Below, in pieces: positions 33,462 through 48,953 of a DNA stretch of 64,000 bases; position 1 is the stretch's first letter; every line of letters begins with the position of its first letter. Below the pieces are notes generated by a model that was not told the DNA's origin, did not search any database, and saw only the letters and a program-made list of their open reading frames with translations. Source of the DNA: Agrobacterium vitis (GTDB taxonomy: Bacteria; Pseudomonadota; Alphaproteobacteria; Rhizobiales; Rhizobiaceae); contig NZ_AP023273.1 of the NCBI RefSeq assembly GCF_013426735.1, positions 868,001-932,000 of the forward strand. The letters run 5' to 3'. Both the position numbers and the translations under genes were made by a program.

Positions 33462-33477
33462 AGCCAAGGAAAATAGC

Positions 33478-34509: not shown

Positions 34510-34528
34510 CCTGTCCTGGAGGACGACC

Positions 34529-34954
34529 ATGCTGAAAACCATCAACCCGCTTTTGACCGGCGATCTGCTCGCTATCCTCGCCGATATGGGCCATGGCGAT
34601 GAAATCGTTATCGCTGATGCTAATTTCCCGGCAGTCACCGTCGCCAACCGTCTGGTGCAGATGCCGGGCATCGACGCTTGTGCTGTGCTGGAGGCTATTC
34701 TCTCACTGATGCCGCTCGATGATTTTGTCGAATATCCGGCTGGCGTCATGGACGCGCCGGGCGAGCGGCCCTCCATCTATGCCGAGTTCGATGCACTGAT
34801 TGAACGCGCAGAAAATCGGAGAATCGAACTGGATCTCATCGACCGCTTCGCTTTCTACGACCGGTCCAAAGCCGCCTTTGCGGTGGTCTCAACCGGCGAG
34901 CGTCGGCTGTACGGCAATATCATCCTGAAAAAGGGCGTGGTTCGTCCCGCATAA
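34529..34954 (+). CDS. fucU: RbsD/FucU-family sugar mutarotase
   Basis: This 141-residue member of the RbsD/FucU family interconverts alpha and beta anomers of fucose (FucU) or ribopyranose/furanose forms (RbsD). The conserved catalytic region ADMGHGDEIVIADANFP (about residues 19-35) and the C-terminal SKAAFAVVSTGERRLYGNIILKKG match FucU. GGAGGA precedes the ATG. The gene sits between the sugar dehydrogenase and the lactonase, which favours an aldose that must be presented as one anomer. Confidence 0.9.
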   Translation: MLKTINPLLTGDLLAILADMGHGDEIVIADANFPAVTVANRLVQMPGIDACAVLEAILSLMPLDDFVEYPAGVMDAPGERPSIYAEFDALIERAENRRIELDLIDRFAFYDRSKAAFAVVSTGERRLYGNIILKKGVVRPA

Positions 34955-34974
34955 GCCAGAGTGGAAAGCTTCCG

Positions 34975-35799
34975 ATGCTCGACAGTCATCAACATTTCTG
35001 GAAAGTCGACCGTGGCGATTACGGCTGGCTGACGCCTGATCTTGGAGCGATTTATCGCAATTTCCTGCCAAAGGATCTGGAACCCGACATGCGCCGGGCC
35101 GGAATAACCCGGACCATTCTGGTCCAGGCGGCGGAAACCCAGGCAGAAACCGATTTCCTGCTGACGATTGCCGCAAAGACTGATTTCATCGCAGGTGTTG
35201 TCGGCTGGCTCGATCTGGAAGCCGATGATTTTTCCACGCGCCTGAAACACTACCGCGCCAATCCTGATTTCATCGGCATCCGTCCCATGCTGCAAAGCTT
35301 GGCCGACGACGTCTATATCCTGCGCCCGAAGGTGATCGATAGCCTCAAAGCCATCGCTGACAGCGGTCTGCCTTTCGATATCCTGACCTTCCCACGCCAT
35401 TTACCGCATGTGATCGCGGCATTGAGACAGGTGCCGGATCTGACGGCTGTGGTCGATCATATTTCCAAGCCGGAAATTGCCAAAGGCACACTTGATCCCT
35501 GGCGCGACCATATGGCGGAAATTGCCAATTTCGACCAAGTCTACTGTAAGGTTTCCGGGATGGTCACAGAAGCCAGTGCCGATTGGGCGCTTGAAGATTT
35601 CCGGCCTTATGTGAATCATGTTGCCAAATGTTTCGGTCCCAACCGGCTGATGTTCGGCAGCGATTGGCCGGTTTGCACGCTGGCCGCCAGCTATGGCGAA
35701 GTTGCCAATCTGGCCCGCACCTTATTGTCCGCCCATTTCGGCCCTGATGATCTCACGCTGATTTTCGAGACCAATGCGCGCCGTTTTTACGGTGTTTGA
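34975..35799 (+). CDS. Amidohydrolase-family sugar lactonase (L-fuconolactonase-like)
   Basis: This 274-residue metal-dependent hydrolase of the amidohydrolase-2 family starts MLDSHQHFWKVDRGDYGWL. The HxH metal motif (HQH) is at residues 5-7. It also has a central DHISKPEIAKG and a C-terminal Asp in LMFGSDWPVC. This layout matches L-fucono-1,5-lactonases and 4-sulfomuconolactone hydrolase relatives. It would convert the lactone made by the upstream aldo/keto reductase to the aldonate dehydrated by the UxaA-type enzyme. It is the last gene of the rightward operon and is followed by a bidirectional terminator. Confidence 0.9.
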   Translation: MLDSHQHFWKVDRGDYGWLTPDLGAIYRNFLPKDLEPDMRRAGITRTILVQAAETQAETDFLLTIAAKTDFIAGVVGWLDLEADDFSTRLKHYRANPDFIGIRPMLQSLADDVYILRPKVIDSLKAIADSGLPFDILTFPRHLPHVIAALRQVPDLTAVVDHISKPEIAKGTLDPWRDHMAEIANFDQVYCKVSGMVTEASADWALEDFRPYVNHVAKCFGPNRLMFGSDWPVCTLAASYGEVANLARTLLSAHFGPDDLTLIFETNARRFYGV

Positions 35800-35900: not shown

Positions 35901-37292
35901 TCAGAAAGGTGCATCGATATCCACGACATCAATCAGCTTGTGATTGACGAATTCCTTGATGCCAAGGCCCAGCAATTCGCGGCCATAGCCCGAACGTTTG
36001 ACGCCGCCGAACGGCAGGTCCGCCTTGACCATGGTCGGATGGTTGATGAACACCATGCCCGTGGTGATCCGGTGGGCAAGAGCAACCCCGCGCGCGGTGT
36101 CACGGGTGAAGATCGAGCCGCCCAAACCATAGGGCGTATCATTGGCGATGCGGATCGCATCATCATCATCCTTGGCGCGAAACAGCATGGAGACAGGGCC
36201 GAAAAACTCCCAATAACGGGCCGGATTGTCATCGGCCAGATCGGTCAGAATGGTTGGCTGCACAAAGGCACCCTGGTTTGGCACCGGCGGCCCGACTTCG
36301 GTTGCCGTGGCCCCATAGGACACCGCTTCGGCAATCTTCTGACGGATCTCGTCGGCAGCACCTTGCGAGGACAGCGGCGCAAGCGTCGTTTGCGGATCGA
36401 ACGGATCACCGGCTTTCAGCCCAGCGACACCGGTTTTGTATTGTTCCAGAAAGGCATCGTAGACCGCATCGACGATAATCATCCGCTTGGACGAGACGCA
36501 AACCTGACCGCCGTTCCAGTGACGACCGAAGACTGCCCATTTCACGGTCTTTTCCAGATCGGCATCGGCCAGAACCACGAAAGCATCGGCGCCTCCCAGT
36601 TCCATGGTGGATTTTTTCAGCGCCTGTCCCGCCTGCGCGGCAATCGTGGCGCCCGCGCCTTCCGAACCCGTCAAAGCAACGCCATGGACGCGCGGATCGT
36701 TGAGGATCATTTCTACCTGGGTCCGCGTCGCATAAAGATTGGTGAAGGCCCCTTTCGGCAGACCGGCCTCCAGCATCAACCGCTCAAAAGCTGCTGCGCA
36801 TTGCGGCACATTCGACGCGTGCTTCAACAGCATGGTATTTCCGGCCGACAGCTGCGGTGCGATGATCCGGGCGATCTGATAATAGGGGAAATTCCAGGGC
36901 TCGATGGCCAACAGCACACCGAGCGGCTCATGCACCAGGACCGCCTCACCTTCAGCCTTGTCGGCGACGGGTAGCTGTTCAGGCTTCAACAGGCGCTCGG
37001 CATTGACAGCGTAGTAATCGAGGATATCGGCAGAAAGCCCCACCTCAGCGCGTGCTTCAGACATCAGCTTGCCCATTTCCAGGGTCAGCAGCTTGGCATA
37101 ATCATCCGTCTGGCCGCGCAGGATTTCGGCGGCAGCATGCATGACCTTGGCGCGCTCGGCAAAGGATGTCTGTCGCCATTGCTGAAATGCGGCATCCGCC
37201 GCCGTGATGGCCGCCTGAACGGCAGCGTCGGTTGCTTCGGGAAAAGTGATAAGAGTTTCGCCAGTATAGGGATTGGTTGTTGCGTAAGCCAT
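35901..37292 (-). CDS. NAD(P)-dependent aldehyde dehydrogenase, succinate-semialdehyde dehydrogenase-like
   Basis: This 463-residue aldehyde dehydrogenase from ATG 37290-37292 (MAYATTNPYTGETLITF) sits behind AAGGACGG. An upstream ATG at 37313 would add seven residues. The catalytic Cys is in GGQVCVSSKRM, and the general-base Glu is in TMELGGADAFVVL. GSEGAGATIAAQAGQ matches the cofactor loop. Length and sequence resemble the short succinate-semialdehyde dehydrogenase (GabD/Sad) group. It lies 160 bases downstream of the polyamine-type ABC ATPase and may be the last gene of that ten-gene unit. It could equally finish lactaldehyde or another small aldehyde. Confidence 0.9.
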   Translation of the reverse strand: MAYATTNPYTGETLITFPEATDAAVQAAITAADAAFQQWRQTSFAERAKVMHAAAEILRGQTDDYAKLLTLEMGKLMSEARAEVGLSADILDYYAVNAERLLKPEQLPVADKAEGEAVLVHEPLGVLLAIEPWNFPYYQIARIIAPQLSAGNTMLLKHASNVPQCAAAFERLMLEAGLPKGAFTNLYATRTQVEMILNDPRVHGVALTGSEGAGATIAAQAGQALKKSTMELGGADAFVVLADADLEKTVKWAVFGRHWNGGQVCVSSKRMIIVDAVYDAFLEQYKTGVAGLKAGDPFDPQTTLAPLSSQGAADEIRQKIAEAVSYGATATEVGPPVPNQGAFVQPTILTDLADDNPARYWEFFGPVSMLFRAKDDDDAIRIANDTPYGLGGSIFTRDTARGVALAHRITTGMVFINHPTMVKADLPFGGVKRSGYGRELLGLGIKEFVNHKLIDVVDIDAPF

Positions 37293-37453
37293 GGAACCGT
37301 CCTTTGCAGTCATTGCTGCGGCGCGCATTAAACCGACATCGGTCGCGTCGATGAGGCAATGATAGCGCTGAAGGTGGTTCTGACTGTTGATCCTAATCAA
37401 GATCGCAAAAGTTGTAGATTATAGCATTTTCAGGAAGCGGTTCTCCCAAAACG

Positions 37454-38530
37454 CTAGTCTGCGAAAACATGCGCCGACGCCGGATCGAACCCCAGCGCAA
37501 CCGGCGCACCGATCGTCAATCCATCCAGTGCGGCATGGCCGAAGGGCAGACGCACGGACAGGCCATGCCCGCCTTCGCTCAATAGCGCGATATGAATCGT
37601 ATTTCCCAGAAACGTAATGTCCTCAATCTTGGCCGCAAGCGTTCCCGGTCCTTGAGCCGAAAGCAGGGTCAACCGCTCTGGTCGCAGCATCAGCATGGTA
37701 TTGCTTCCACTCTGCGCTGATCCATGCAGCGGAATATTTCCGATTGCCAGATGATCACCAAGGCGAATTTCAGCCTTACCGTCCCCGGCATCCGTCACGA
37801 CGCAGGGCAGAAAATCGCTGTCCCCGATAAACTCCGCCACAAACCGCGTCGCCGGATTGGCATAAAGCTCGGCACCGGTGCCGATCTGGTCGATCACCCC
37901 TTTGGAAAACACCGCAATCCTGTCGGAAAGCCGCAGCGCCTCTTCCTGGTCATGGGTGACGTAGAGGATGGTGACATCCGTCTGGTGATGGATGCGGCGG
38001 ATTTCGTGCTGAATTTCCTCGCGCAGTTTCTTGTCCAGCGCCGAAAGCGGCTCGTCCATCAACAGCACAGGCGGATCGTAAGCCAGCGCCCGTGCCAGTG
38101 CGACACGCTGCTGCTGACCGCCCGACATTTGCGCCGGTTTGCGATCCTCATAGCCTTCCAGCCGCACCAATTGCAGCATCTTGCGGACGCGCTCGGTGAT
38201 ATCAGCCTTCGACCAGCCGCGCATTTTCAGCGGAAAGGCGATGTTCTGACCAACAGACAAATGCGGAAACAGCGTATAGCGCTGAAACACCATGCCGATA
38301 TTGCGTTGGTGTGATGGGGTCTGCAAGACGCTCTTGCCCGATAGCAGCATATCGCCCGCACTCGGCTGCTCGAAACCGGCAAGGATATAAAGTGTCGTGC
38401 TCTTGCCGGACCCGGATGGGCCGAGAAAGGTCATGAACTCGCCCTTTGCCACCTCAAGATTGACATCCTGCACGGCGACCACCGGGCCATATTGCTTGCG
38501 GATACCGCGAATTTCCAGAAAAGGCGTCAT
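37454..38530 (-). CDS. Polyamine/spermidine-type ABC transporter ATPase
   Basis: This 358-residue PotA/FbpC-type ATPase has Walker A GPSGSGKSTTLYIL (about residues 36-49), signature MSGGQQQRVALARAL, Walker B PVLLMDEPLSALD and switch His in YVTHDQEEAL. The C-terminal TOBE domain (about residues 275-350) has MLMLRPERLTLL. It overlaps the upstream permease start by four bases. It energises import of the unknown substrate of this unit. Confidence 0.93.
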   Translation of the reverse strand: MTPFLEIRGIRKQYGPVVAVQDVNLEVAKGEFMTFLGPSGSGKSTTLYILAGFEQPSAGDMLLSGKSVLQTPSHQRNIGMVFQRYTLFPHLSVGQNIAFPLKMRGWSKADITERVRKMLQLVRLEGYEDRKPAQMSGGQQQRVALARALAYDPPVLLMDEPLSALDKKLREEIQHEIRRIHHQTDVTILYVTHDQEEALRLSDRIAVFSKGVIDQIGTGAELYANPATRFVAEFIGDSDFLPCVVTDAGDGKAEIRLGDHLAIGNIPLHGSAQSGSNTMLMLRPERLTLLSAQGPGTLAAKIEDITFLGNTIHIALLSEGGHGLSVRLPFGHAALDGLTIGAPVALGFDPASAHVFAD

Positions 38531-39327
38531 GCTTTCAGTCCTTTGCGCACCAGGGCGGTGATCAGCATCAACGCGATGGTGACGACAATCAGAAGGGTGG
38601 AGGCGGCGGCAATCACCGGTGTCAGATCCTGACGCAGCGTCGCCCAGATCTTCACAGGCAAAGTTTGCAGCGTTGGGCTTGCCATGAAGATCGCCAGAAC
38701 AACCTCATCCCAGGAGGTCAGGAAGGAAAACACCGCCGCCGAAAACAAGCCGTGGCCGATGCAGGGCAGCGTTATCAACAGCCGCGCCTTCAGCGGCGAG
38801 GCACCGCACAGTACCGCCGCATCCTCGATAGATTTGTCAAAACCTTCCAGCGCGTTGGTCAGCGCCAGAATAGAGAATGGCAGTGCGACAACCAGATGGG
38901 CGATGACGAAACCGAGTGTCGTGCCGTTCAGACCGATGCGCAGGAAAAACGCATAGAGCGCCACGGCCAGCACCACAACGGGCAGGATCATCGGCGTCAT
39001 GAACAGTGCGCGCAGCGCGTCCCGCCCCAGAAACCGGCCACGCACCAGGCCGAACGAGGCACAAAGCCCAATGAGCACCGACAGGATGGTGACGATGACA
39101 GCGATGCGAAAGCTGGTCCAGGCGGCATCCAGCCAACGCGGATCGGCAAACAGCTGGCCATACCATTTTGTGGTCCAGGCCGGTGGCGGAAAAATCAGCC
39201 ATTGCGAGGAGCCGAAGGACAGGGCCGCGATAAACAGGATGGGCAGCAAGAGAAAAGCCGCCGTCAGCAGCGTGATGACCAGCAAAATCCATTTCCAGGT
39301 GCCAAGGCTGTTGAAATTCAAAAGCAT
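38527..39327 (-). CDS. ABC transporter permease (PotC-like)
   Basis: This 266-residue permease has six hydrophobic segments and the EAA coupling loop EDAAVLCGASPLKARLLITLP (about residues 178-198). The start is ATG 39325-39327 (MLLNFNSLGTWKW), preceded by GGGAGGG. The longer frame overlaps the other permease. It pairs with the gene just upstream. The N-terminal 20 residues form a normal first segment entry and not a signal peptide. Confidence 0.92.
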   Translation of the reverse strand: MLLNFNSLGTWKWILLVITLLTAAFLLLPILFIAALSFGSSQWLIFPPPAWTTKWYGQLFADPRWLDAAWTSFRIAVIVTILSVLIGLCASFGLVRGRFLGRDALRALFMTPMILPVVVLAVALYAFFLRIGLNGTTLGFVIAHLVVALPFSILALTNALEGFDKSIEDAAVLCGASPLKARLLITLPCIGHGLFSAAVFSFLTSWDEVVLAIFMASPTLQTLPVKIWATLRQDLTPVIAAASTLLIVVTIALMLITALVRKGLKA

Positions 39328-39328
39328 G

Positions 39329-40195
39329 TCAGCGCCCTCCCTCACCGGCTGCACCGAACAGCTTCAGTTGCAGGGCGTAGAGGCTCAGCGTCACCACCAG
39401 CAGCACCAGCGCCGCCGCACCGCCCATGCCCCAATTGACCAGCGATTGGACGAATTGAGCGATCAGTTCGGCCAGCATCATATTGGATGTGCCGCCAAGC
39501 AGCGACGGCGTAACGAAATAGCCAAGCGACATGACAAACACCATCAACCCGCCCGACACCATGCCCGGCATGGCGAGCGGCAGCAGCACCGTCACCAGTG
39601 CCTGCCAGCGGGTCGCGCCGCACAGTGCCGCGGCCTGCAACAGCGCCGGATCGATCTTGCGGATCACCCCATAGAGCGGAATGATAATGAAGGGCAGCAT
39701 GATATAGCTCATACCAATAGTCACACCGACGAGATTGTTGACCATCACCAGCGGCGTATCGATCACACCGAGGCTGATCAGTGTCTTGTTGATGACCCCG
39801 GTGCGCTGTAACAGCACCATCCAGGCATAGGTACGGGCCAGAAGGTTGGTCCACATCGACAGCAAGACGATGGCAAAGATCACTGAAGCCAATCGTTGCG
39901 GCATGATCGACAGCGCCCAGGCGACGGGAAAGCCGATCAGCAGCGAAATTACTGTGACCAAGGCCGAAACGAAGAACGTGTTGAAGAAGATTTTCAGATA
40001 AGTCGCACTTCCCAGCAATGCGGCATAATTGCCAAGGCCGAGAACCGGCTCCGTCACCGAGCGCGTGAGCAGTGCCAGCACCGGCAGGACGAAGAAAATC
40101 AGGATCAACACCAGCGCCGGCAGGGTCGCGGCTTTATTGCCGAAACCAAACCGGTTCCTACTGGGCTGCTCAATGGTCGAGATCGGGGACGCCAT
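39329..40195 (-). CDS. ABC transporter permease (PotB-like)
   Basis: This 288-residue permease starts at ATG 40193-40195 (MASPISTIEQPSRNRFG) behind AAGGA. An earlier ATG (40229-40231) lacks a good ribosome site. Six hydrophobic segments follow a hydrophilic N-terminus, and the coupling loop LLQAAALCGATRWQALVTVLLP is near residue 190-211. Together with the PotC-like subunit and the PotD/F-like receptor it forms a polyamine/opine/amine-family importer. Confidence 0.92.
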   Translation of the reverse strand: MASPISTIEQPSRNRFGFGNKAATLPALVLILIFFVLPVLALLTRSVTEPVLGLGNYAALLGSATYLKIFFNTFFVSALVTVISLLIGFPVAWALSIMPQRLASVIFAIVLLSMWTNLLARTYAWMVLLQRTGVINKTLISLGVIDTPLVMVNNLVGVTIGMSYIMLPFIIIPLYGVIRKIDPALLQAAALCGATRWQALVTVLLPLAMPGMVSGGLMVFVMSLGYFVTPSLLGGTSNMMLAELIAQFVQSLVNWGMGGAAALVLLVVTLSLYALQLKLFGAAGEGGR

Positions 40196-40317
40196 GCCGT
40201 TTCCTTGCGAAACCCGTCCGGCATCGTGCATTTGGAAGATGCAACATGCCGCAACGCTGAGGACGCTCCGGCACCGGATGTTTACGGTGCCGGAAATGCC
40301 TTACTTTAGAGTATGGC

Positions 40318-41328
40318 TTATTTTGACTGCCAAGCGTACCAGCGCTCGCCAATCTCGTCACGGTGCTTGGCCCAATAGGCCATGTCAGCATTGACCTGCG
40401 ACGCGGTCTGCTGGTCCGGCAAGGTCTTGGCGATAGCGGGGTCCATCAGCGCTGGTGACTTGGTATTCACAGGCGCATAGCCGGTCCCTGCCGCCATCTC
40501 GGCCTGGCCAGCGGGTGAAGTTGCGAAAGCGATGAATTTCATCGCCGCTTCCTTGTTCTTGGTACCCTTCGGTGCCACCAACGCATCGGCTGCCGTGATG
40601 TTCTGCGCCCAGGAGGTTTCAACCGTAACACCGGTCGCGGCCAGCGCCGTCAACCGGCCATTCCAGAAGGAGCCGAACGGGGCTTCGGCAGAGGCCAGCA
40701 ATTGCTGCGACTGCGCACCGCCCGACCACCAGATGATGTCGGATTTGATGGTGTCGAGCTTCTTGAAGGCGCGGTCGAGATCGAGCGGGTAAAGCTTGTC
40801 CGGGGTTACACCATCCGCCAACAGCGCGGCTTCAATCACGCCCGGTGCAGACCATTTATAGAAGGTTCGTTTGCCCGGAAATTTCTTGGTGTCGAACAGG
40901 TCCGTCCAGCTTTTCGGGCAGGCGGCAACAGCGTCCTTGTTGCAGCCGACCACGAAGGAATAATAAAAGCTGCCGACCGAATAATCCGTCACGAAGCGCG
41001 GATCGAGTGTGGTCTTGTCGATGGTCTTGAAATCGAGCTTTTCCAGCAGACCCTTGTCGCCAGCCTGAATGGCATAGTCGCCTTCGACATCGACGACGTC
41101 CCAGCTCACGCCCTTGGCCTCAACCATGGCTTTGATCTTGCCGTAATCGGTCGGGCCATCCTGGAGAACGTTGATTCCTTCTTTGGCCGTGAATTTATCC
41201 GCCCAGGCGGATTTCTGCACATCCTGCGTGGTGCCGCCCCAACTGGTGAACACCATGTCGGCGGCCACAGCCTGGCTGGAGACGCCCAAGAGCAAAGCCA
41301 GCGATGCGATAATGGTTGTGTTTTTCAT
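40318..41328 (-). CDS. ABC transporter substrate-binding protein, polyamine/putrescine-type
   Basis: This 336-residue periplasmic receptor has a Sec signal peptide (MKNTTIIASLALLLGVSSQA, cleavage after AVA). The mature protein begins DMVFTSWGGTTQDVQKSAWADKF, typical of PotD/PotF/opine-type class II receptors, with the WDVVDVEGD hinge. Two cysteines (VVGCNKDAVAACPKSW) may form the disulfide usual in this family. It leads the transporter block, 80 bases downstream of the aldehyde dehydrogenase gene. Substrate probably a charged amine or related small molecule, by family. Confidence 0.92.
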   Translation of the reverse strand: MKNTTIIASLALLLGVSSQAVAADMVFTSWGGTTQDVQKSAWADKFTAKEGINVLQDGPTDYGKIKAMVEAKGVSWDVVDVEGDYAIQAGDKGLLEKLDFKTIDKTTLDPRFVTDYSVGSFYYSFVVGCNKDAVAACPKSWTDLFDTKKFPGKRTFYKWSAPGVIEAALLADGVTPDKLYPLDLDRAFKKLDTIKSDIIWWSGGAQSQQLLASAEAPFGSFWNGRLTALAATGVTVETSWAQNITAADALVAPKGTKNKEAAMKFIAFATSPAGQAEMAAGTGYAPVNTKSPALMDPAIAKTLPDQQTASQVNADMAYWAKHRDEIGERWYAWQSK

Positions 41329-41409
41329 GTTCCCTTGTCCTTGTTTGATTGTGCCTTACCCGGATGCCGGTTGCTTCTTTTGGGCCATCCATCCGGGGCA
41401 TGTTCTTAA

Positions 41410-42873
41410 TCACCGCATCACGAACGGATCGGGAAACGGGTCATCTGAGGTTTTCAGCCAGACTGTCTTGGTGCGGGTATAATCCAGCACCGCGGCCATG
41501 CCGCCTTCCCGTCCATGTCCGGACAGGCCAAAGCCGCCAAACGGCGCAATCGGCGAAACAGCACGGTAGGTATTGACCCAGACGACGCCAGCGCGAAGCG
41601 CCCGTATCATCCGGTGAGCACGTGTCAGGTTTTGGGTAAAGACGCCGGATGCCAGGCCATAGGCCGTGTCATTGGCCAGATGCAGCGCCTCCGCCTCACC
41701 CGCGAAAGACACCACCGACAGGACCGGTCCAAAAAACTCCTGCGCCAGCGACGGAGAGTTGACGCCATCGCAATCGAGAATGGTCGGCGGATAGAAATTG
41801 CCTGGACCATCCGGGCGCTGCCCTCCCGTCACCAGCCGAGCGCCTGCGGCGACCGAGGCCATGACCAACGCATCGACATGATCCTGCTGGCGTCTTGTGG
41901 CCAGCGGTCCGACCTCTGTTGCCATATCCAGTGGACTGCCGATGCGGATTGCTTCGGCCTTGTCCTTCAACCGGGCCAGAAATGCATCCTTTACCGAGCG
42001 TTCGACAATCAGCCGTGATCCGGCAACGCAGGACTGGCCGGTCGCGGCAAATATGCCGGAGACCTGCGCATTGGCAGCACTTTCCAGATCCGCGTCGGCA
42101 AACACGATAAGCGGTGACTTGCCGCCCAGTTCCAGCGAGGTCGAGGCCAGATTTTCCGCCGAATTGCGCACCACATGCCGTGCTGCCTCCGGCCCGCCGG
42201 TAAAGGCCACATGGGCAACCCTGGGATGGCGGGTCAGCGCTGCACCGCAGGACGGGCCAAATCCGGTGATGATATTAATGACACCGGGTGGGAACCCCGC
42301 CTCATGCACCAGCCGGGCAAATTCCAGCATCGGGGCCGGACCGTCTTCCGAGGCTTTCACCACCATCGTGCAGCCAGCCGCCAGCGCCGGGCCGATCTTG
42401 ACCGCCGAGAGAAACAACTGGCTGTTCCACGGAATGACCATGGCGACCACACCGACCGGCTCTCTCCGCAGCCAGACATCCATATCCGGCTTGTCTATCG
42501 GCAGTGTCGAGCCTTCGATCTTGTCAGCGAGCCCCGCATAATAGCGATAGTAATCGGCGACATAGGCAATTTGTGAGCTTGTTTCTCGGATGATCTTGCC
42601 GGTATCGCGGGTTTCCAGCTCTGCCAGCCTTTGCGCATTGGCGGCAATCAGGTCGGCCAGCCGGTAGATCAACTTGCCACGCTGGGTGGCGGTCATTTTT
42701 GCCCATGGCCCGTCATAGAGTGCTGCATGGGCCGCCTCCACTGCGCGGTTCACATCCGCTTCGCGCGCTTCCGGCATATCCGCCCAGACCTCGCCGGTGG
42801 CCGGATCGAGGCTTTCAAACCGCGCTTCGCCGTCACTGAAGGCACCATCGATGTAAAGCTGGAAACGCTGCAT
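41410..42873 (-). CDS. Aldehyde dehydrogenase (NAD-dependent, betaine/aminoaldehyde-type)
   Basis: This 487-residue aldehyde dehydrogenase starts at ATG 42871-42873 (MQRFQLYIDGAFSDGEARFESLDP). The catalytic Cys is in TGQSCVAGSRLIV, the Glu in LELGGKSPLIVF, and the cofactor loop is AFTGGPEAARHVV. It resembles the betaine-aldehyde/aminoaldehyde/hydroxymuconic-semialdehyde groups of the superfamily. It lies four bases after the luciferase-like monooxygenase stop, so the two are clearly co-transcribed. It presumably oxidises an aldehyde released by the flavin monooxygenase. Confidence 0.91.
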   Translation of the reverse strand: MQRFQLYIDGAFSDGEARFESLDPATGEVWADMPEAREADVNRAVEAAHAALYDGPWAKMTATQRGKLIYRLADLIAANAQRLAELETRDTGKIIRETSSQIAYVADYYRYYAGLADKIEGSTLPIDKPDMDVWLRREPVGVVAMVIPWNSQLFLSAVKIGPALAAGCTMVVKASEDGPAPMLEFARLVHEAGFPPGVINIITGFGPSCGAALTRHPRVAHVAFTGGPEAARHVVRNSAENLASTSLELGGKSPLIVFADADLESAANAQVSGIFAATGQSCVAGSRLIVERSVKDAFLARLKDKAEAIRIGSPLDMATEVGPLATRRQQDHVDALVMASVAAGARLVTGGQRPDGPGNFYPPTILDCDGVNSPSLAQEFFGPVLSVVSFAGEAEALHLANDTAYGLASGVFTQNLTRAHRMIRALRAGVVWVNTYRAVSPIAPFGGFGLSGHGREGGMAAVLDYTRTKTVWLKTSDDPFPDPFVMR

Positions 42874-42877
42874 CGCC

Positions 42878-43915
42878 TTACTCCGCAAAAGCCGGCATGA
42901 CATCAGCAATGAAGCGCTCCAGCGACGCTTTCTTGCGCTCGAAGCTCATGCCGGTGTCGATCCAGAAGGAAAATTCGTCATAGCCCAGCGCCTCATAGCG
43001 TTTCAGCCGGGCGATCACCTCATCCGCCGTACCAACAGCCATATTGGCCCGCATCACCTCTGGTGCCAGCATGGCATTGGCGTCGATATCCTCCTGGCTC
43101 AACCGCTCGATCAGGCCTTGATGGATTGGACGCTCGTTTTTGAACCACGCGAAGAAGTAATTGTAATAGGTGCTCAATTCCCTGGCCGCCTGGGCAATAT
43201 CGGCCTCACTGGAACCAACATAGCTATGCAGCAGCAGCATGATTTTCGGACGCGGCAGATAGGGGGACTTCTCGCAGGCGGCATTGAATCGCTGCATCAG
43301 AGTTTCGATTTCGCCATCACCATTCCACAGCGGCGTCACCTGTACGTTGCAGCCATTGGCCACGGCAAAATCATGAGAATTGGGGTCACGTGCCGCCACC
43401 CAGAGCGGGATCGGTTCCTGCAAAGGTTTCGGTGCCGAGGTTGTCGCCGGGAAGGACCAGAACTCACCCTCATGGGCATAGTCGCCAGCCCAGACGCCTT
43501 TGATGGCGGGAACAAGTTCGCGCATCCGCTGCCCGGCGGTCCAGGCATCAAGGCCCGGCATCAGCCGCTCATATTCAAAGGAATAGGCACCCCGGGCGAT
43601 GCCGATATCCAGCCGGCCATTGGTGATCAGGTCGGTCATCGCCGCCTCGCCTGCCAGCTTGATCGGATGCCAGAAGGGCGCAATCACCGTTCCGGTTCCA
43701 AGGCGGACGTTTTTCACCCGGTTGGCCAGATCGGCAATGGTCACGAACGGGTTGGGCGCAATGGTGAAGTCCATGCCATGGTGTTCGCCGGTCCAGATCG
43801 CATGCATGCCACCCTTATCTGCTATCTCGCAGAGTTGCAGAAATTCCTCATAGAGGCTCTTGTGGCTCTGGCTGGCATCGAGCCGTTCCATATGGACGAA
43901 GAGAGAGAACTTCAT
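42878..43915 (-). CDS. Luciferase-like flavin-dependent monooxygenase
   Basis: This 345-residue LLM-class FMNH2-dependent monooxygenase (bacterial luciferase superfamily) starts MKFSLFVHMERLDA and has EHHGMDFTIAPNPFVTIADLANRVKN, the typical beta-barrel strand/loop near residues 45-70. LGTGTVIAPFWHPIKLAGEAAM follows, and the insertion loop and C-terminal helix VMPAFAE complete the fold. It needs reduced flavin, which the flavin reductase directly upstream would supply. Substrate not recognisable. Members attack alkanesulfonates, amines, nitriles, ketones or ring nitrogen compounds. Confidence 0.92.
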   Translation of the reverse strand: MKFSLFVHMERLDASQSHKSLYEEFLQLCEIADKGGMHAIWTGEHHGMDFTIAPNPFVTIADLANRVKNVRLGTGTVIAPFWHPIKLAGEAAMTDLITNGRLDIGIARGAYSFEYERLMPGLDAWTAGQRMRELVPAIKGVWAGDYAHEGEFWSFPATTSAPKPLQEPIPLWVAARDPNSHDFAVANGCNVQVTPLWNGDGEIETLMQRFNAACEKSPYLPRPKIMLLLHSYVGSSEADIAQAARELSTYYNYFFAWFKNERPIHQGLIERLSQEDIDANAMLAPEVMRANMAVGTADEVIARLKRYEALGYDEFSFWIDTGMSFERKKASLERFIADVMPAFAE

Positions 43916-43918
43916 GGA

Positions 43919-44839
43919 TCAAGCCTTCCTGGCAATGGAGTGAACCCGGCCTGCCGTCTCGTTGCCAACATAGACGCCGAAATTGCCAAGCGAGCTTTCC
44001 GCCGCGAACCGGTTGAGAATATCCGCCGTCGCCGCGCCGCCCGGACCGGAAAGCTGGTCAACCGGAACGAAATTGCCGTATTTCGGCGCGCCGGGACCCG
44101 CAAAAGCCCGGTAAACGATATGCTGGCATCCCTCGCTCTTGTCTTCGTAGACGGAATACAGAAACCCGATGGTAATGCCGAGCCCTGTCACCTGTTCGAG
44201 ATGGGATTTCAGATCCTGCAAAGGCTCGCCGCTGACCGCATGACAACCCGGCAGGCTGCGCCCACCCTCGCCCACCACAAGCACCTCACCGTCCCGCTCG
44301 ATAACGGCGCTCAGATGCAGTGGGCCATCGCTGGCGGCACTGACAGCTTTTTCGGCAAGAGCGGGCGTAAAGTAACCGCCGCGCACATAGCCAAGCCCGT
44401 TCAACTCGCTTTTGTCGAATGCCTGTACCCGCCCCAGCAGCACGACATGATCACCAGCCTCGATCACCTGTTTCAGGCTGCAATCAAACCAGGCAGACGT
44501 CCCGGAAAACACTGGCGACCCATGAGGACCAAGCTGCCACTCCACGCTTGCAAAACGATCTTCGACCGGTCGGGCGAAGGTGTTGGACACGTCCTTCTGC
44601 GCATCAGACAATATATTGACCGCAAAGCCTTTGGCCTTGGTCATCACCTCAAAATTGCGCGAGGTTCTGGCGAGACAGACCAGCAGCAGAGGAGGATCGA
44701 GCGACACCGAAGTAAAGGAATTGGCGGTAAAGCCGATGGGAGAACCATGAGGGTCAAGCGTGGTGACAACGGTGACGCCAGTGGCGAAAGCGCCGAAGGC
44801 ATCGCGCAGGCTGCGGGGGTCGATTATCGCTTCGCTCAT
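43919..44839 (-). CDS. Two-domain flavin reductase: DIM6/HpaC domain plus degenerate Nudix-like C-terminus
   Basis: This 306-residue protein begins with a flavin reductase domain of the HpaC type (about residues 1-165: LRDAFGAFATGVTVVTT, GFTANSFTSVSLDPPLLLVC, KGFAVNILSDAQKDVSNTFA). It continues with a second domain of about 135 residues that normal flavin reductases lack. The segment LPGCHAVSGEPLQDLKSHLE followed by QVTGLGITIGFLYSVYED and HIVYRAF aligns by eye with the Nudix box and following strands of Nudix hydrolases. The metal-binding glutamates of the box are missing, so it would be non-catalytic, perhaps ligand-sensing. The gene supplies FMNH2 to the monooxygenase three bases downstream. 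Confidence 0.85.
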   Translation of the reverse strand: MSEAIIDPRSLRDAFGAFATGVTVVTTLDPHGSPIGFTANSFTSVSLDPPLLLVCLARTSRNFEVMTKAKGFAVNILSDAQKDVSNTFARPVEDRFASVEWQLGPHGSPVFSGTSAWFDCSLKQVIEAGDHVVLLGRVQAFDKSELNGLGYVRGGYFTPALAEKAVSAASDGPLHLSAVIERDGEVLVVGEGGRSLPGCHAVSGEPLQDLKSHLEQVTGLGITIGFLYSVYEDKSEGCQHIVYRAFAGPGAPKYGNFVPVDQLSGPGGAATADILNRFAAESSLGNFGVYVGNETAGRVHSIARKA

Positions 44840-44870
44840 CCGCGCACCTCACTGTTGGTTTTCTCAGCAC

Positions 44871-45707
44871 TCATGGATGTGCCTCCGGTAAAGCCAGCCA
44901 CGCGGCCATGATGTTATGCACCTCTTGCGGTGCCGTAAGGTTGACCATGTGGCGATGGCCGGGAACGATTTTGGCAATACCCTGCTGCGCCTGCCCCGCC
45001 ATGGTCTGCGCCATTTCAGCCGTCGAGTTCGGATCACCGGCACCCGTCAGGAATAGCGCCGGACAGGTAACCTGCGGCCAGCAGTCGGCGTAGGTTTCAT
45101 CCCCATTGGCAAAGGCACGGTAAGCGGTGGCATAGGCATCGACATTCATCTGCCGCAGGCATTGCTCGGTCAGGGCGCGAGCTGCAAGGCTGACGGCATC
45201 GGTGTCGAACCAACGCTTCAACGGCCCTTCAATATCAATGCCGTCGGCGGCAATCGACTCTGCGCGGGCGATAACCGCCGCCTTGGCCTGTGCATCACGC
45301 CGGTAGACGCCGTTGACCAATGCCACGCGCCGGATTTTCTGCGGAAAGCTGGCGACGGCACCGCCTGCAATCAACGCGCCCATCGAATGACCGGCCAGAT
45401 TGATCGGTCCAAGCTTCATTTCCTCCAGGAAACCGCCGAACCAAGCCACGAAATCCGGCAGTTCGCTGCCTTTCGGCAAGGCAAGACTCTGACCATGGCC
45501 CGGCATATCGACCGCAATGACGCGATGACTGGCGGACAGGCTTTCCATTTGCGGCCACCATGCTTCCAGTCGCATGCCGACGCCATGAACCAGCACCACC
45601 GGCTCACCGCTACCTTGCTCCACATAAGCGGAGCCATTAGGGGTAATCTGGCGCTCGACCGCCGGAAATGGCGATGGGGCCGTGCCACGCATTGCTGCCA
45701 TCTCCAT
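44871..45707 (-). CDS. Alpha/beta hydrolase
   Basis: This 278-residue alpha/beta hydrolase has the nucleophile elbow NLAGHSMGALIAGG (about residues 104-117). The oxyanion region is VVLVHGVGMRLEAWW, and the catalytic His is in VPGHRHMVNLTAPQ. No signal peptide is present, so it acts in the cytoplasm. The frame starts at ATG 45705-45707, with further ATGs at codons 3 and 6. It lies between the DUF1185 gene and the flavin reductase. It may hydrolyse an ester, lactone or amide formed by the monooxygenase, or open the substrate before oxidation. Confidence 0.9.
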   Translation of the reverse strand: MEMAAMRGTAPSPFPAVERQITPNGSAYVEQGSGEPVVLVHGVGMRLEAWWPQMESLSASHRVIAVDMPGHGQSLALPKGSELPDFVAWFGGFLEEMKLGPINLAGHSMGALIAGGAVASFPQKIRRVALVNGVYRRDAQAKAAVIARAESIAADGIDIEGPLKRWFDTDAVSLAARALTEQCLRQMNVDAYATAYRAFANGDETYADCWPQVTCPALFLTGAGDPNSTAEMAQTMAGQAQQGIAKIVPGHRHMVNLTAPQEVHNIMAAWLALPEAHP

Positions 45708-45721
45708 CTCGCCGCCCCCGC

Positions 45722-46324
45722 TTATACGCCCGCCGGGTTGGCGACATCCTGGCCCAGATCTTTCAGATCCTGATAGCGGTCGCCGATCCGGTGATGGGGC
45801 CTTCCGCCGACAGACGCCCCAAGCCCGACAACGATTTCGTCGGCAGCTGGTGCATCGGCAATGGCCGTCTGGATCGTCAGGTAATGAGAGCGGCGGCCTT
45901 CGTCATTCTTGTCCATCAACGGAATCATGATCGGCGCATTGGCCGGACCGCGGGTGTTACAAAATGCGAGATAGGATTTTGCCCCCACCGCCGTGCGGTA
46001 ATGGTTGCCGAACCGCAACGTATGGATCAGCGCCGAAGCATGCTCGATCTCGCCATCAAGACCGACAACGGCAACTTTGCCATAGGCCTCGACCGCTTCG
46101 CCGGAGCCAACGGCTTCCAGAATCATGCCTGTCAGAAGCTCGCCGAGAACCGGGGCGCATTGATGGATTTCCGGTTTCAGATCCTCAACAAACCCGCGTC
46201 CGGCCCAGGGATTTTTAACGACAGCAAAAGCCGCGTAGAGCTTCAATGGTGTCGGCGCTGCCTTACCTCCTTCCACCAGAGTGGTTTCCACATGGAGTAG
46301 GGTTTTGCGGATGTGCAGGGCCAT
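45722..46324 (-). CDS. Amino acid synthesis family (DUF1185) protein
   Basis: This 200-residue member of the DUF1185/AA_synth family has characteristic pieces AAFAVVKNPWAGRGFVEDLKP, GKVAVVGLDGEIEHASALIHTLRFGN and the C-terminal VVGLGASVGGRPHHRIGDRYQD. The family name comes from domain databases and no reaction is established to my knowledge. Genes of this family often sit in flavin-monooxygenase catabolic clusters in rhizobia and burkholderias. It is the first structural gene of the leftward unit, with a GntR-type operator directly upstream of it. Confidence 0.9.
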   Translation of the reverse strand: MALHIRKTLLHVETTLVEGGKAAPTPLKLYAAFAVVKNPWAGRGFVEDLKPEIHQCAPVLGELLTGMILEAVGSGEAVEAYGKVAVVGLDGEIEHASALIHTLRFGNHYRTAVGAKSYLAFCNTRGPANAPIMIPLMDKNDEGRRSHYLTIQTAIADAPAADEIVVGLGASVGGRPHHRIGDRYQDLKDLGQDVANPAGV

Positions 46325-46348
46325 GGCTTACCTCAAATATCAATCTTG

Positions 46349-46364
46349 GTATTATGGTATGCCA
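46349..46364. promoter_or_regulatory. Probable GntR/FCD operator 1 upstream of the DUF1185 unit
   Basis: The sequence TATTATGGTATGCCAA (about 46349-46365) contains the dyad TGGTATGCCA (46355-46364), a form used by several FCD-type GntR regulators. It lies about 31 bases upstream of the DUF1185 start. It recurs nearly exactly upstream of the GntR gene at 47173-47189. Confidence 0.75.
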
Positions 46365-46425
46365 AGCTATTTCAGAGTCAAGCGACTTGTCGAGCAGGAA
46401 TTATTTTTTCTTTTAAGGAATATAC

Positions 46426-47118
46426 CTATTCGACCTCAACGGCGGATCGGGCCTGCTGCGCAAGCACCGCGACGGCAATAGAGGAGGCGCGCTGAACATG
46501 ATCAATTGCCGCCTGTTCGGCGGCTGGTCCATCGCCATTGCGGATCGCCTCGACAATCCGTTGCATCTGGGCTGGTCCCTCCGTCGCCCGGCCATCGGTC
46601 TTGATGGTCATAGAACGCAAATGGTTGATCCGCACGGTCATTTGCCGCACCACGCCCCAGGCGACCTGCCTATCAATCCGGGTAAACAAGGTCTCGTAAA
46701 ATCGCGTCGTTTCCTTCAAGACATCAGCCATGTCCTGGCGAGCATAACTGTCCTTGATCGCGTCCAGCGCGTCTGACAAGCCAGTCACAATAGCCGGATC
46801 ACCCCTCTCCGCACAAAGCCGCGCCGCCATGCCTTCCAAAGCCGCACGGATTTCATAGATCTGCCGGGCTTCATCAACGTCTAGCAGCGCCACCATCGGC
46901 CCCTTGCTTTGGGGATTGCTGACCAGACCCTCGGACTCCAGGTGCCGCAGCACTTCGCGCACCACCGTTCGGCTAACCCCAAGCTGCGCGCAGAGATCAC
47001 GCTCGACCAGCCGGTCGCCCGGCTTGAAATAGCCGCTGATGATCGCGTCGCGGACTTTTTCAAGCGCCAGTTCCCTGAGCGTCTTGGACGGGCGCTCCAC
47101 TTTTATGGTCTCTGTCAT
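46426..47118 (-). CDS. GntR-family (FCD) regulator of the flavin-monooxygenase unit
   Basis: This 230-residue regulator starts at ATG 47116-47118 (MTETIKVERPSKTLREL). The winged HTH spans about residues 12-75 (FKPGDRLVERDLCAQLGVSRTVVREVLRHLESEGLVSN). The FCD domain has metal-binding positions at RFYETLFTRIDRQ, RQMTVRINHLRS and QAAIDHVQRAS. A GTG ten codons upstream is an alternative start. It lies immediately upstream of the ten-gene unit, in the same direction with 100 bases between. Operator copies precede both, so it probably represses the unit and itself. Confidence 0.92.
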   Translation of the reverse strand: MTETIKVERPSKTLRELALEKVRDAIISGYFKPGDRLVERDLCAQLGVSRTVVREVLRHLESEGLVSNPQSKGPMVALLDVDEARQIYEIRAALEGMAARLCAERGDPAIVTGLSDALDAIKDSYARQDMADVLKETTRFYETLFTRIDRQVAWGVVRQMTVRINHLRSMTIKTDGRATEGPAQMQRIVEAIRNGDGPAAEQAAIDHVQRASSIAVAVLAQQARSAVEVE

Positions 47119-47172: not shown

Positions 47173-47188
47173 GTATTATGGTCTACCA
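47173..47188. promoter_or_regulatory. Probable GntR/FCD operator 2 upstream of the regulator gene
   Basis: GTATTATGGTCTACCAAA (around 47173-47189) contains TGGTCTACCA (47179-47188). It shares TATTATGGTNTRCCAA with operator 1 at 46349. It lies about 61 bases upstream of the regulator start, consistent with autoregulation. Confidence 0.75.
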
Positions 47189-47219
47189 AAAGCCAAAATG
47201 ACAAGCGGGAATGAATTCC

Positions 47220-47687
47220 TCACGATTTCGGCTTGGCATGGCGGGTTTTCAGTACATTGCGAATGGAAAAGCTGGAGTGGATGCGCGCTACGCCCGGCAG
47301 TTTGGCCAGGATTTCCTTGTGGATTCGTTCAAAATCATGGGCGCTTTCGACTTCCAGTTTCAAGAGGTAATCCGATCCGCCGGTCATCAGGAAACATTCC
47401 TGGATTTCCGGATATTTCCGGATCGCCGCCTCAAAGCGGTTGAGATGGTCCTCGGTCTGCCGGTCCAGTGTGATGTTGATGATGACGGCAATACCATCGT
47501 CCTTATCAGACTTGCCGAGAATGGCGGTATAGCCGCTGATATAACCCTGCTTTTCAAGCAGCGCGACACGCCGCAGGCAGGCTGAGGCGGAAAGCCCGAC
47601 AGCCGCCGCCAGACTGGCATTGCTGATGCGCGCATTCAGCTGCAATTGGCGCATAATGGCCCGGTCGATGGCGTCGATACCACTCAC
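47220..47687 (-). CDS. dadR: Lrp/AsnC-family regulator of the dad operon
   Basis: This 155-residue Lrp/AsnC protein has an N-terminal HTH (NARISNASLAAAVGLSASACLRRVALLEKQGYI at about residues 14-46) and the RAM effector domain (ECFLMTGGSDYLLKLEVESAHDFERIHKE). The start is GTG 47685-47687 (VSGIDAIDRAIMRQLQ), seven bases after GAGGA. The longer frame would read through the promoter. It is divergent from dadX-dadA, so it probably activates D-alanine/L-alanine catabolism in response to alanine. The name is by position and family. Confidence 0.88.
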   Translation of the reverse strand: MSGIDAIDRAIMRQLQLNARISNASLAAAVGLSASACLRRVALLEKQGYISGYTAILGKSDKDDGIAVIINITLDRQTEDHLNRFEAAIRKYPEIQECFLMTGGSDYLLKLEVESAHDFERIHKEILAKLPGVARIHSSFSIRNVLKTRHAKPKS

Positions 47688-47812
47688 GCAACAATCCTCG
47701 TTTTCTTCGCATAAAATTGCGCAGAAATTCACAAAGCACAAGAGTGGCCGATAACCCGCCCGGAAATTTCGCGAATCTTTCAATATCATCGGAGAAAAAA
47801 CGGGGTGCAGTT
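47688..47812. promoter_or_regulatory. dadR/dadX divergent promoter
   Basis: The 125 bases are A+T-rich near the centre and contain AATT-rich elements such as AATTGCGCAGAAATT (about 47716-47730) and GAAATTTCGCGAA (about 47763-47775). These resemble the loose Lrp-type binding dyads. The assignment is positional, and no exact motif is claimed. Confidence 0.4.
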
Positions 47813-48937
47813 ATGGACATGTCTATCAGCCAGGATCTGAATGCCGATGCGTTTTCCGCCCGCCTCGTGATCGACCTCGACGCGCTTGCCGACAATTACC
47901 GCCAACTGGCCGCTGAAGCCGCCCCGGCGGAAACCTCCGCTGTTGTCAAGGCCGATGCCTATGGCCTTGGAGCCGCCCGCGTCGGCCCCGCGCTCTACCG
48001 GGCTGGATGCCGGAAATTCTTCGTGGCGCATGTGCAGGAAGCAGCCGCGCTGAGGCAGCATTTGCCTGGGGATGCCGAACTATTCATTCTCAATGGTTTA
48101 CAGCCGGGCGCAGAACCCTTTGCCGCAGCAAACGGCTTCATACCGGTGCTGAATTCCTTGGACCAGCTTGCCAAATGGTCGAAAATGGCAAGCCAGTTTG
48201 GACGGCCCCTGCCCGCGATCCTGCAATTTGATACCGGCATGTCGCGGCTCGGCTTTTCACCAGAAGAAGCCAATGTTCTCGCTGGCGACCCCGCCCTGTT
48301 GTCCGGCCTTTCCATCCGCTATATCATGAGCCATCTCGCCTCAGCCGATGACAGCGCCAGCACCCAGAATGCCGCGCAATTTGCTGTCATGCGCGGGCGA
48401 TTGGCGCAATTTCCAGGCATTGCCTTGTGCTTTTCCAATTCAGGCGGCATCTTTATCGACAAGCAGTTTCACGGCGCGTTGGTGCGCCCCGGCGTTGCCC
48501 TTTACGGTGCGGTGCCCAGCGATCTGGCGGGAAGCCGTATGAAGCCGGTGGTGCGGGTCGATGCGAAAGTCATCCAGACACGAACGGTACCAGCCGGGGC
48601 CTGCGTGGGCTACGGCGCGACCTATGTGGCCACCAAGGAAACCCGGCTGGCCACCATCGCCATCGGTTATGCTGATGGCCTGCCGCGTTGCTTGAGCGAC
48701 CGGGGTGCCGCTTATTATGGCGACATCCGTTTGCCGATTGTCGGGCGGGTGTCGATGGACAGCATGACACTCGATATTTCGGACTTGCCGCCCGGCATGT
48801 TGACGCTGGGAAGTCTGGTGGAGATGATTGGTCCGCATCAGAGCCTGGAGGATGTGGCGCAAGCGGCGGGCACCATCGCCTATGAAATCCTGACCAGCCT
48901 TGGTCACCGCTATCACCGCGACTATATTTCAGCATAA
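47813..48937 (+). CDS. dadX: Alanine racemase (catabolic, DadX-type)
   Basis: This 374-residue fold-type III PLP enzyme interconverts L- and D-alanine. The PLP lysine is Lys46 in [17 protein letters not shown], and the catalytic Tyr is in [16 protein letters not shown] near residue 265. [12 protein letters not shown] sequence ([13 protein letters not shown]) follows. The start is ATG 47813 ([14 protein letters not shown]); the upstream in-frame part is promoter. It is followed 16 bases later by dadA, a catabolic arrangement: racemise, then oxidise the D-isomer. Confidence 0.94.
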
Positions 48938-48953
48938 AAAATTGGGGAACGAC

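Follow-up and report, generated by a model that had tools for sequence, protein, structure and literature searches.

What is degraded by the ten-gene catabolic cluster in this stretch of Agrobacterium (Allorhizobium) vitis DNA? The stretch, hereafter the window (64,000 nucleotides, positions 868,001 to 932,000 of contig NZ_AP023273.1), belongs to a 5.88-Mb genome whose luciferase-like monooxygenase (LLM) is 98% identical to those of A. vitis CG78 and CG118, the closest named relatives here. The initial annotation had proposed one catabolic unit in which import, reduced-flavin-dependent oxidation, hydrolysis and two aldehyde oxidations would end at succinate. We judge this outline to be right; the substrate and pathway, left unnamed, can now be named, the gene set being that of the trigonelline pathway of Acinetobacter baylyi. 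Indeed, a published pathway with the same genes and a known substrate exists, reportedly described in A. baylyi ADP1 by Perchat et al. in 2018, the study to which the intermediates given below are attributed. The pathway is thus already known and the cluster is no mystery: on sequence grounds, it is very probably a trigonelline (N-methylnicotinate) operon of the tgnABCDEF type.

The ten open reading frames (ORFs), from 46324 down to 35901, and the GntR ORF that comes first all lie on the minus strand, tightly spaced, as had been described. Measured between ORF ends, the gaps from tgnF through gtsB are 14, 31, 3, 4, 81, and 86 bp, the ABC genes overlap by 26 and 4 bp, the gap ahead of the tenth gene is 53 to 161 bp, since its start codon is unsure, and 101 bp separate the GntR gene from the first operon gene, tgnF. 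The best Pfam matches, each above its curated cutoff, confirm the protein families named earlier; from the 3' to the 5' end of the operon they are Aldedh, ABC_tran with TOBE_2, BPD_transp_1 twice, SBP_bac_8, Aldedh, Bac_luciferase, Flavin_Reduct, Abhydrolase_6, and AA_synth (formerly DUF1185), and the regulator ORF carries GntR and FCD domains.

The enzymes were identified by comparison with Acinetobacter. In an Acinetobacter baumannii record (L141, deposited as a 4.09-Mb plasmid), a divergent GntR gene is followed by F-D-A-B-C in the order of the window, with identities to the window proteins of 45% (GntR), 76% (F), 54% (D), 42% (A), 71% (B), and 69% (C). The three protein clusters nearest to the LLM of this record (93 to 94% identical) bear the NCBI name flavin-dependent trigonelline monooxygenase oxygenase component (Acinetobacter), a trigonelline name carried by 3 of the 120 proteins listed near it, many names being cut or absent. 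The window LLM is 68 to 70% identical to three Acinetobacter proteins named trigonelline monooxygenase; among the 120 proteins listed as its nearest, 7 have that name from JGI. Furthermore, in a 47-row maximum-likelihood tree of LLMs, the window and Acinetobacter proteins share a 31-row clade (support, 100/98), apart from a clade at 46 to 52% identity (Pseudomonas, halomonads, and actinobacteria), whose support is weak (90/51), and from a clade at 38 to 41% that includes A. fabrum pAt; L108 is a long branch in this tree. The window holds, in one block with TgnB and with order and strand as in Acinetobacter, orthologs of TgnA, TgnC, TgnD, and TgnF. The A. baumannii cluster also has a GntR regulator and the same operator motif as the window; it differs in a Transp_cyt_pur permease that follows tgnC in place of an ABC importer, in a separate GabD-type succinate semialdehyde dehydrogenase (SSADH), and in the divergent orientation of the regulator, whereas the window has GtsABCD and a nonorthologous SSADH. 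For the enzymes taken by themselves, we hold the trigonelline assignment with high confidence.

Gene content, gene order, orthology, and a common operator motif are what we observe, and the reactions that we infer from them would run as follows. TgnA would reduce flavin for TgnB, the LLM, which with reduced flavin and O2 would cleave the pyridinium ring at the C5-C6 bond; TgnC would oxidize the hydroxybutyrolactone product to N-methylformamido-methylene succinate; TgnD would hydrolyze the latter to methylamine, formate, CO2, and succinate semialdehyde (SSA); and the last dehydrogenase, aided by TgnF, would yield succinate. Ring oxidation, aldehyde-level oxidation, hydrolysis, and SSA oxidation are presumably the steps of the tgn pathway in this order. 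According to two publications, TgnA/TgnB opens the aromatic ring of trigonelline (PMC8269262) and TgnF stimulates TgnE, the SSA dehydrogenase (PMC7913881); a role has thus been reported for the DUF1185 protein, which had been thought to be without a known reaction.

We examined the conservation of the cluster in a set of related loci, consisting of the best 80 of 583 relatives by LLM similarity. The five-gene core (F-D-A-B-C) keeps its order and strand in 79 of the 80 (the sole exception is a contig of 3.4 kb); the four ABC genes lie next to the core in 78, the two exceptions being contigs of 5.7 and 3.4 kb; given these counts, the arrangement is not due to chance. An order-wide sample of 390 genomes contained 10 carriers, and the lowest GC content among carrier loci was 0.44, versus 0.39 for the A. 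baumannii locus. The proposal of a ten-gene unit holds for the core and the ABC genes but not for the SSADH-like tenth gene, which is not a conserved part of the cluster: the window form is present in 3 of the 80 loci, all from A. vitis or A. taibaishanense. Elsewhere, this slot is occupied by a GabD-type gene (22 loci) or shows no aldehyde dehydrogenase match within 1.2 kb (52 loci), the remainder being one locus that is cut off and two without the ABC block.

The best NCBIfam match of the tenth gene product is the NADP-SSADH model PRK09406.1, at 478 bits, below the cutoff of 730. Its identity is 33% to the S. meliloti enzyme and 29 to 36% to the three GabD-type enzymes compared, and these values suggest that TgnE has probably been replaced by a nonorthologous enzyme in the window. 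As for the methylamine released by TgnD, it could enter a gamma-glutamylmethylamide/N-methylglutamate-type gene set on the contig of the operon. A type III glutamate-ammonia ligase/GMAS-type gene is found at C2:1161536-1162822 (681 bits versus a cutoff of 470), and the other end of this contig carries genes with glutamine amidotransferase and glutamate-synthase-like domains (below cutoffs), one ORF without a family match, and soxB-soxA-soxG, of which soxG is below its cutoff. If read across a circular contig, this succession of GMAS, mgs-like, and sox genes has the layout of the N-methylglutamate pathway for methylamine. The sox genes by themselves could encode a sarcosine oxidase; the GMAS, mgs-like, and sox genes support the use of methylamine, in a way that is not specific to trigonelline.

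A 16-bp palindrome with the consensus TTATGGTATACCATAA was found upstream of the DUF1185 gene, with at most 3 mismatches in 83 of 90 loci and in none of 90 shuffled sequences, which preserve base content only. Allowing up to 5 mismatches, the numbers were 90/90 for the loci and 9/90 for the shuffles, with 1/90 shuffles at exactly 4. The 90 loci, which include the window and several close kin, were required to have a DUF1185 match above 60% and 260 bases of upstream sequence. The window has a GntR gene upstream of the operon and two operator-like sites, which overlap the putative operon promoter and the putative -10 element of the regulator gene, respectively (Table 1). Promoter-like hexamers were located at 47204-47175, in a scan where promoter-like sites equaled chance expectation (5 versus 5.0 expected); the terminator scan (13 terminator-like sites versus 10.9 expected) was similarly uninformative. 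The core of the operon site is the sole exact TGGYATRCCAWAA in the window genome. A search of this genome for further operators with one mismatch returned 38 sites, one of them exact, versus 31 in the reversed control, so that only the exact site counts. We propose that GntR/GtsR would repress the operon and its own gene at TTATGGTATACCATAA-like sites over the promoters, being likely an autorepressor, and that it would be released by trigonelline or a pathway product. A 2014 study describes atu4243 as totally repressed by the atu4232 product, with derepression so far unknown (PMC3907764); trigonelline or a pathway product may be the missing inducer.

The operator also occurs in other gene arrangements. 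In the A. baumannii locus, one copy is located upstream of tgnF and another upstream of the separate SSADH gene, 29 bp from its start, and where the receptor gene is a separate unit (L116, L117, and L135), the motif lies 142, 146, and 111 bp ahead of it, with 3, 3, and 1 mismatches, respectively. Of note, the motif is carried by several loci of the 46 to 52% LLM clade, a clade to which L115, L116, L117, P0121, P0150, and P0163 belong. Four loci of the 38 to 41% clade (L084, L119, L120, and L121) yielded no operator with at most 3 mismatches.

We now turn to what the importer carries. Over 313 residues, the receptor (40318-41328) shares 83.7% identity with the sequence common to PDB entries 4EQ7 and 4EUO, deposited as a polyamine receptor. 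Against solved chains, it scores 599 bits with Atu4243, 394 and 393 bits with the gamma-aminobutyric acid (GABA) sensor entries 9D57 and 6DGV, and at most 103 bits with putrescine/spermidine receptors; the polyamine/amine type first assigned to the importer is thus not borne out, its closest solved relatives being of the GABA type. The window combines this Atu4243/GtsA-orthologous receptor with two permeases and an ATPase, in the gene order found on pRL10, as in a Gts system. The literature assigns GABA transport to the Gts systems found in R. leguminosarum and A. tumefaciens and reports that a homologous Gts (less than 40% identity) carries 3H-GABA in Brucella (PMC7449393), identifies PDB 4EUO as Atu4243 with GABA (PMC6829864), and uses Atu4243 as a liganded model for a sensor (PMC12999171).

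We lean modestly toward the view that GtsABCD (receptor, permeases, and ATPase) would import the plant betaine trigonelline. In its broader form, which we favor with similar caution, receptors of the Atu4243/GtsA/Pf622 family would be importers of the trigonelline regulon, their natural ligand would be trigonelline or a close N-methyl-heteroaromatic betaine, with GABA as a mimic, and the signal that lifts GntR repression of the gts/atu4243 operon would be trigonelline or a product of its breakdown. A competing view, which we take seriously without favoring it, is that the enzymes are Tgn while the importer is truly for GABA, so that the operon gathers two sources of SSA and trigonelline enters otherwise. 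The homologous Brucella transporter speaks for this view, as do the descriptions of Atu4243 (84% identical to the window receptor) as highly specific for GABA (PMC3907764) and of PA0222, which is 33% identical to Atu4243, keeps its GABA-contact residues, and binds GABA at 0.29 uM (PMC6829864). What ties the importer to trigonelline instead is genome context, the receptors nearest to 4EQ7, the layout of pRL10, the shared operator, the exchange of transporters, and the lack of a GABA transaminase gene. Among 218 family genomes, the receptor (at least 63% identity) is present in 27 and sits solely beside tgnB: all 27 have a tgnB-type LLM on the same contig, at a start-to-start distance of 2.6 to 3.7 kb, and the LLM is found without the receptor in 3 further genomes (Fisher p ~1e-31, kinship ignored). 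Dropped from these counts were 8 receptor matches at 36 to 39% and 10 LLM matches at 37 to 45%, the latter in 8 genomes, 7 of them without a closer LLM; genome G950 has one member of each dropped set, on different contigs. The receptors nearest to 4EQ7 (94.6%), those of L027 and L039, are both inside tgn clusters, and the Tgn operator precedes the receptor gene in the three loci mentioned above where it forms a separate unit. Moreover, tgnC is followed by a Transp_cyt_pur permease gene in three tgn clusters (L141, L118, and L136), and a BCCT carrier is encoded beside the LLM in one (L137), as would be expected if every cluster carries an importer for one cargo. A clear importer is not seen in every cluster, because the neighbors scanned in other receptor-less loci are of other kinds: an FMO-like enzyme (L145), outer-membrane efflux proteins (L147 and L148), an EamA-type carrier (L149), and a gamma-glutamyltranspeptidase (L150). 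No GABA transaminase gene was found in the operon, and repression with a derepression so far unknown in 2014 would be odd if GABA were the signal.

Known relatives place the cluster in rhizobial genetics. On pSymA of S. meliloti (L140), orthologs of nine of the window's ten genes and of the GntR gene (LLM 82%, DUF1185 86%, and receptor 82% identical) are flanked by nodL-noeA-noeB on one side and nifB on the other; stc3/stc4 and nodD2 are located upstream, and nifHDK follows downstream. This cluster differs from that of the window by a NIPSNAP gene, a GabD-type SSADH, and its location in the symbiotic region. Going by their titles, a study by Boivin in 1990 reportedly dealt with the S. meliloti trigonelline (trc) region, and one by Goldmann et al. 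in 1991 with trigonelline genes in the pSym symbiotic region. Wild-type S. meliloti is stated to grow on trigonelline, and a delta-pSymA strain is not (PMC4207669). These genetics fit the cluster without singling out its genes. The S. meliloti importer genes (L140 25281-29137) are probably SMa0799-803, i.e., potABCD2, as mapped via gene numbers just ahead of fixABCX (SMa0816-0822). The same plasmid encodes two extra flavin reductases (L140 2062-2754 and 6360-7052), 56 to 57% identical to TgnA over 222 to 232 residues. A Tgn-type operator lies about 180 bp ahead of each gene; one of the two reductases is annotated as stachydrine N-demethylase Stc3, and both may be members of the trigonelline regulon instead of serving stachydrine breakdown. 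They are 76 residues shorter than the window TgnA, in which about 150 residues C-terminal of the Flavin_Reduct domain match no Pfam family.

In R. leguminosarum/johnstonii 3841, the gts operon of pRL10 consists of a GntR gene followed by F-D-A-B-C-NIPSNAP-SBP-perm-perm-ATPase-SSADH, eleven genes of which the ABC genes are the 7th to 10th. This run matches operon pRL100242-252, with gtsABCD as 248-251, reportedly described by White et al. 2009, who are reported to have assigned to it the transport of GABA and the breakdown of a precursor that they did not identify. The window operon differs by its SSADH and by the absence of a NIPSNAP gene, just 81 bases separating tgnC from the receptor gene. 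The atu4232-atu4243 region of A. fabrum C58 would, judging from L027 and L039, be a tgn cluster as well; in L027, the receptor gene is the 11th after the GntR gene, counting plus-strand ORFs taken as genes, which fits the numbers atu4232 and atu4243. Concerning Pf622/iGABASnFR, the L116 and L117 receptors are the closest among the loci compared, 82 to 87% identical to Pf622 segments of 103 and 169 residues; their genes lie behind the Tgn operator motif, no more than about 8 kb from an LLM gene of 49% identity. These loci differ from the window in that their LLMs belong to the 46 to 52% clade and the receptor is a separate unit, and in L116 only LLM and reductase matches were obtained, F, D, and C not being found in the 19 kb read.

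Could the same chemistry serve another N-heteroaromatic, such as homarine, pyridine, nicotinate, or an N-methyl analog? LLM two-component systems diverge by substrate, and on A. fabrum pAt a paralogous operon (40%) has another kind of transporter close by, so that more than one substrate may be served by the wider family. The Arthrobacter pyridine (pyr) pathway follows a similar logic; our literature search returned no paper on it. We nevertheless consider such a substrate improbable for the window, given that the Acinetobacter block is fully syntenic with it and about 70% identical, and given the position of the S. meliloti ortholog on the replicon needed for growth on trigonelline and the argument that TgnA/B is sterically unfit for homarine (PMC8269262). 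The pAt sister operon (L084 6466-12255; also L119 and L120) encodes an LLM (40 to 41%), a flavin reductase (37 to 39%), an aldehyde dehydrogenase (44 to 46%), a hydrolase (29 to 31%), and a DUF1185 protein (49 to 53%), together with NIPSNAP and carboxymuconolactone-decarboxylase-like genes and a ProXWV-type betaine ABC importer nearby; its substrate is perhaps another N-methylated heteroaromatic betaine. Still less credible, to the point of being very improbable, is a pathway for polyamines or amines supplied through a PotABCD importer. This idea draws on the best NCBIfam matches of the ABC parts, which are Pot or phosphonate models, on the name given to 4EQ7 by its depositors, and on the naming of the probable S. 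meliloti ortholog SMa0799-803 as potABCD2, counted among putrescine uptake systems required for symbiosis (PMC7268258). However, the Pot models among the matches listed are all below their curated cutoffs (PotD, 60.5 versus 582 bits; potA subfamily, 345.5 versus 355.6 bits, the ATPase being judged on the best 25 of 189 families), solved receptors named for putrescine or spermidine fall far behind Atu4243, and the operon contains no aminotransferase, amine oxidase, or glutamylpolyamine enzyme. The PotABCD importer was rejected on these score cutoffs and on the closest solved receptors. A Rut-like pyrimidine system was also rejected: RutA was absent from the best 25 of 26 LLM families, and RutF scored 100.5 against a cutoff of 254.75.

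Several points weigh against trigonelline as the substrate and cargo. The closest studied receptors bind GABA, with structural data in support. The trigonelline label is also carried by 5 of 120 listed members of the 46 to 52% LLM clade, so that the label alone does not fix the substrate. Our reference is the A. baumannii record and its protein names, which stand in for A. baylyi ADP1, and the window enzymes are judged by their sequences; in addition, the window SSADH is not orthologous to that of Acinetobacter (29%). As for the operator, the consensus was derived from the very loci in which it was counted, many of them close kin, the operon site of the window, with 4/16 mismatches, is among the weaker of the 90, and L146 and L147 (LLM identities to the window, 67 and 63%) yielded no operator with at most 3 mismatches.

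Table 1. Positions of the predicted genes and operator-like sites of the cluster in the window
Feature	Position	Strand	Basis and remarks
Operator-like palindrome over putative -10 of GntR gene	47176..47191	-	2/16 mismatches to consensus
gtsR/tgnR, GntR-FCD regulator	46426..47118	-	GntR and FCD (Pfam); open frame reaches 47148 with GTG; 45% to divergent Acinetobacter GntR
Operator-like site over putative operon promoter	46352..46367	-	4/16 mismatches to consensus
tgnF, AA_synth/DUF1185, putative SSA dehydrogenase helper	45722..46324	-	PF06684, 223.6 bits; 76% to Acinetobacter
tgnD, alpha/beta hydrolase	44871..45707	-	Abhydrolase_6; 54% to Acinetobacter
tgnA, flavin reductase	43919..44839	-	Flavin_Reduct at residues 16-158 of 306; 42% to Acinetobacter
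tgnB, luciferase-like (LLM) putative trigonelline monooxygenase	42878..43915	-	70, 68, and 69% to Acinetobacter P0241, P0242, and P0243; shared clade 100/98
tgnC, aldehyde dehydrogenase	41410..42873	-	Aldedh; 69% to Acinetobacter; ATG 4 bases past tgnB
gtsA, periplasmic receptor, GABA-binding-protein type	40318..41328	-	83.7%/313 residues to PDB 4EQ7/4EUO sequence
gtsB, ABC permease	39329..40231	-	BPD_transp_1; 82% to S. meliloti pSymA
gtsC, ABC permease	38527..39354	-	BPD_transp_1; 78% to S. meliloti; inner ATG at 39327 possible
gtsD, ABC ATPase	37454..38530	-	ABC_tran and TOBE_2; 75% to S. meliloti
SSADH-like gene, tgnE slot	35901..37400	-	Aldedh; likely start 37313 or 37292

The cluster is adjoined at 47220-50219 by an Lrp-type regulator gene divergent from genes that encode an alanine racemase and an FAD oxidoreductase resembling DadA; these genes may serve D-alanine catabolism. 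On its other side, convergent with the operon, the plus strand (33343-35799) encodes an aldo/keto reductase and an amidohydrolase nearest to L-fucono-1,5-lactonase (226 bits; cutoff, 400).

The value of this assignment is that it joins trigonelline catabolism (tgn and trc), the gts GABA operon, the Agrobacterium receptor Atu4243, and the receptor used in GABA imaging. Our literature search, whose coverage left subscription papers outside, found no link between trigonelline and gts/Atu4243, which is weak evidence of novelty; the word trigonelline occurs zero times in PMC12999171, PMC7449393, PMC3907764, and PMC7268258. Among the papers retrieved, gts and trigonelline co-occurred, along with GABA, solely in a plant proteomics review (PMC11674799), where gts may stand for glycosyltransferases. 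Trigonelline is a common plant compound, and this plant betaine, by the title of a cited study, reportedly activates NodD2 in an alfalfa symbiont; the real cargo of the importer therefore matters for the biology of the rhizosphere and the nodule. If trigonelline is that cargo, then GABA sensors based on Pf622 may respond to it, and S. meliloti potABCD2, for which a requirement in symbiosis has been reported, would probably be a trigonelline importer.

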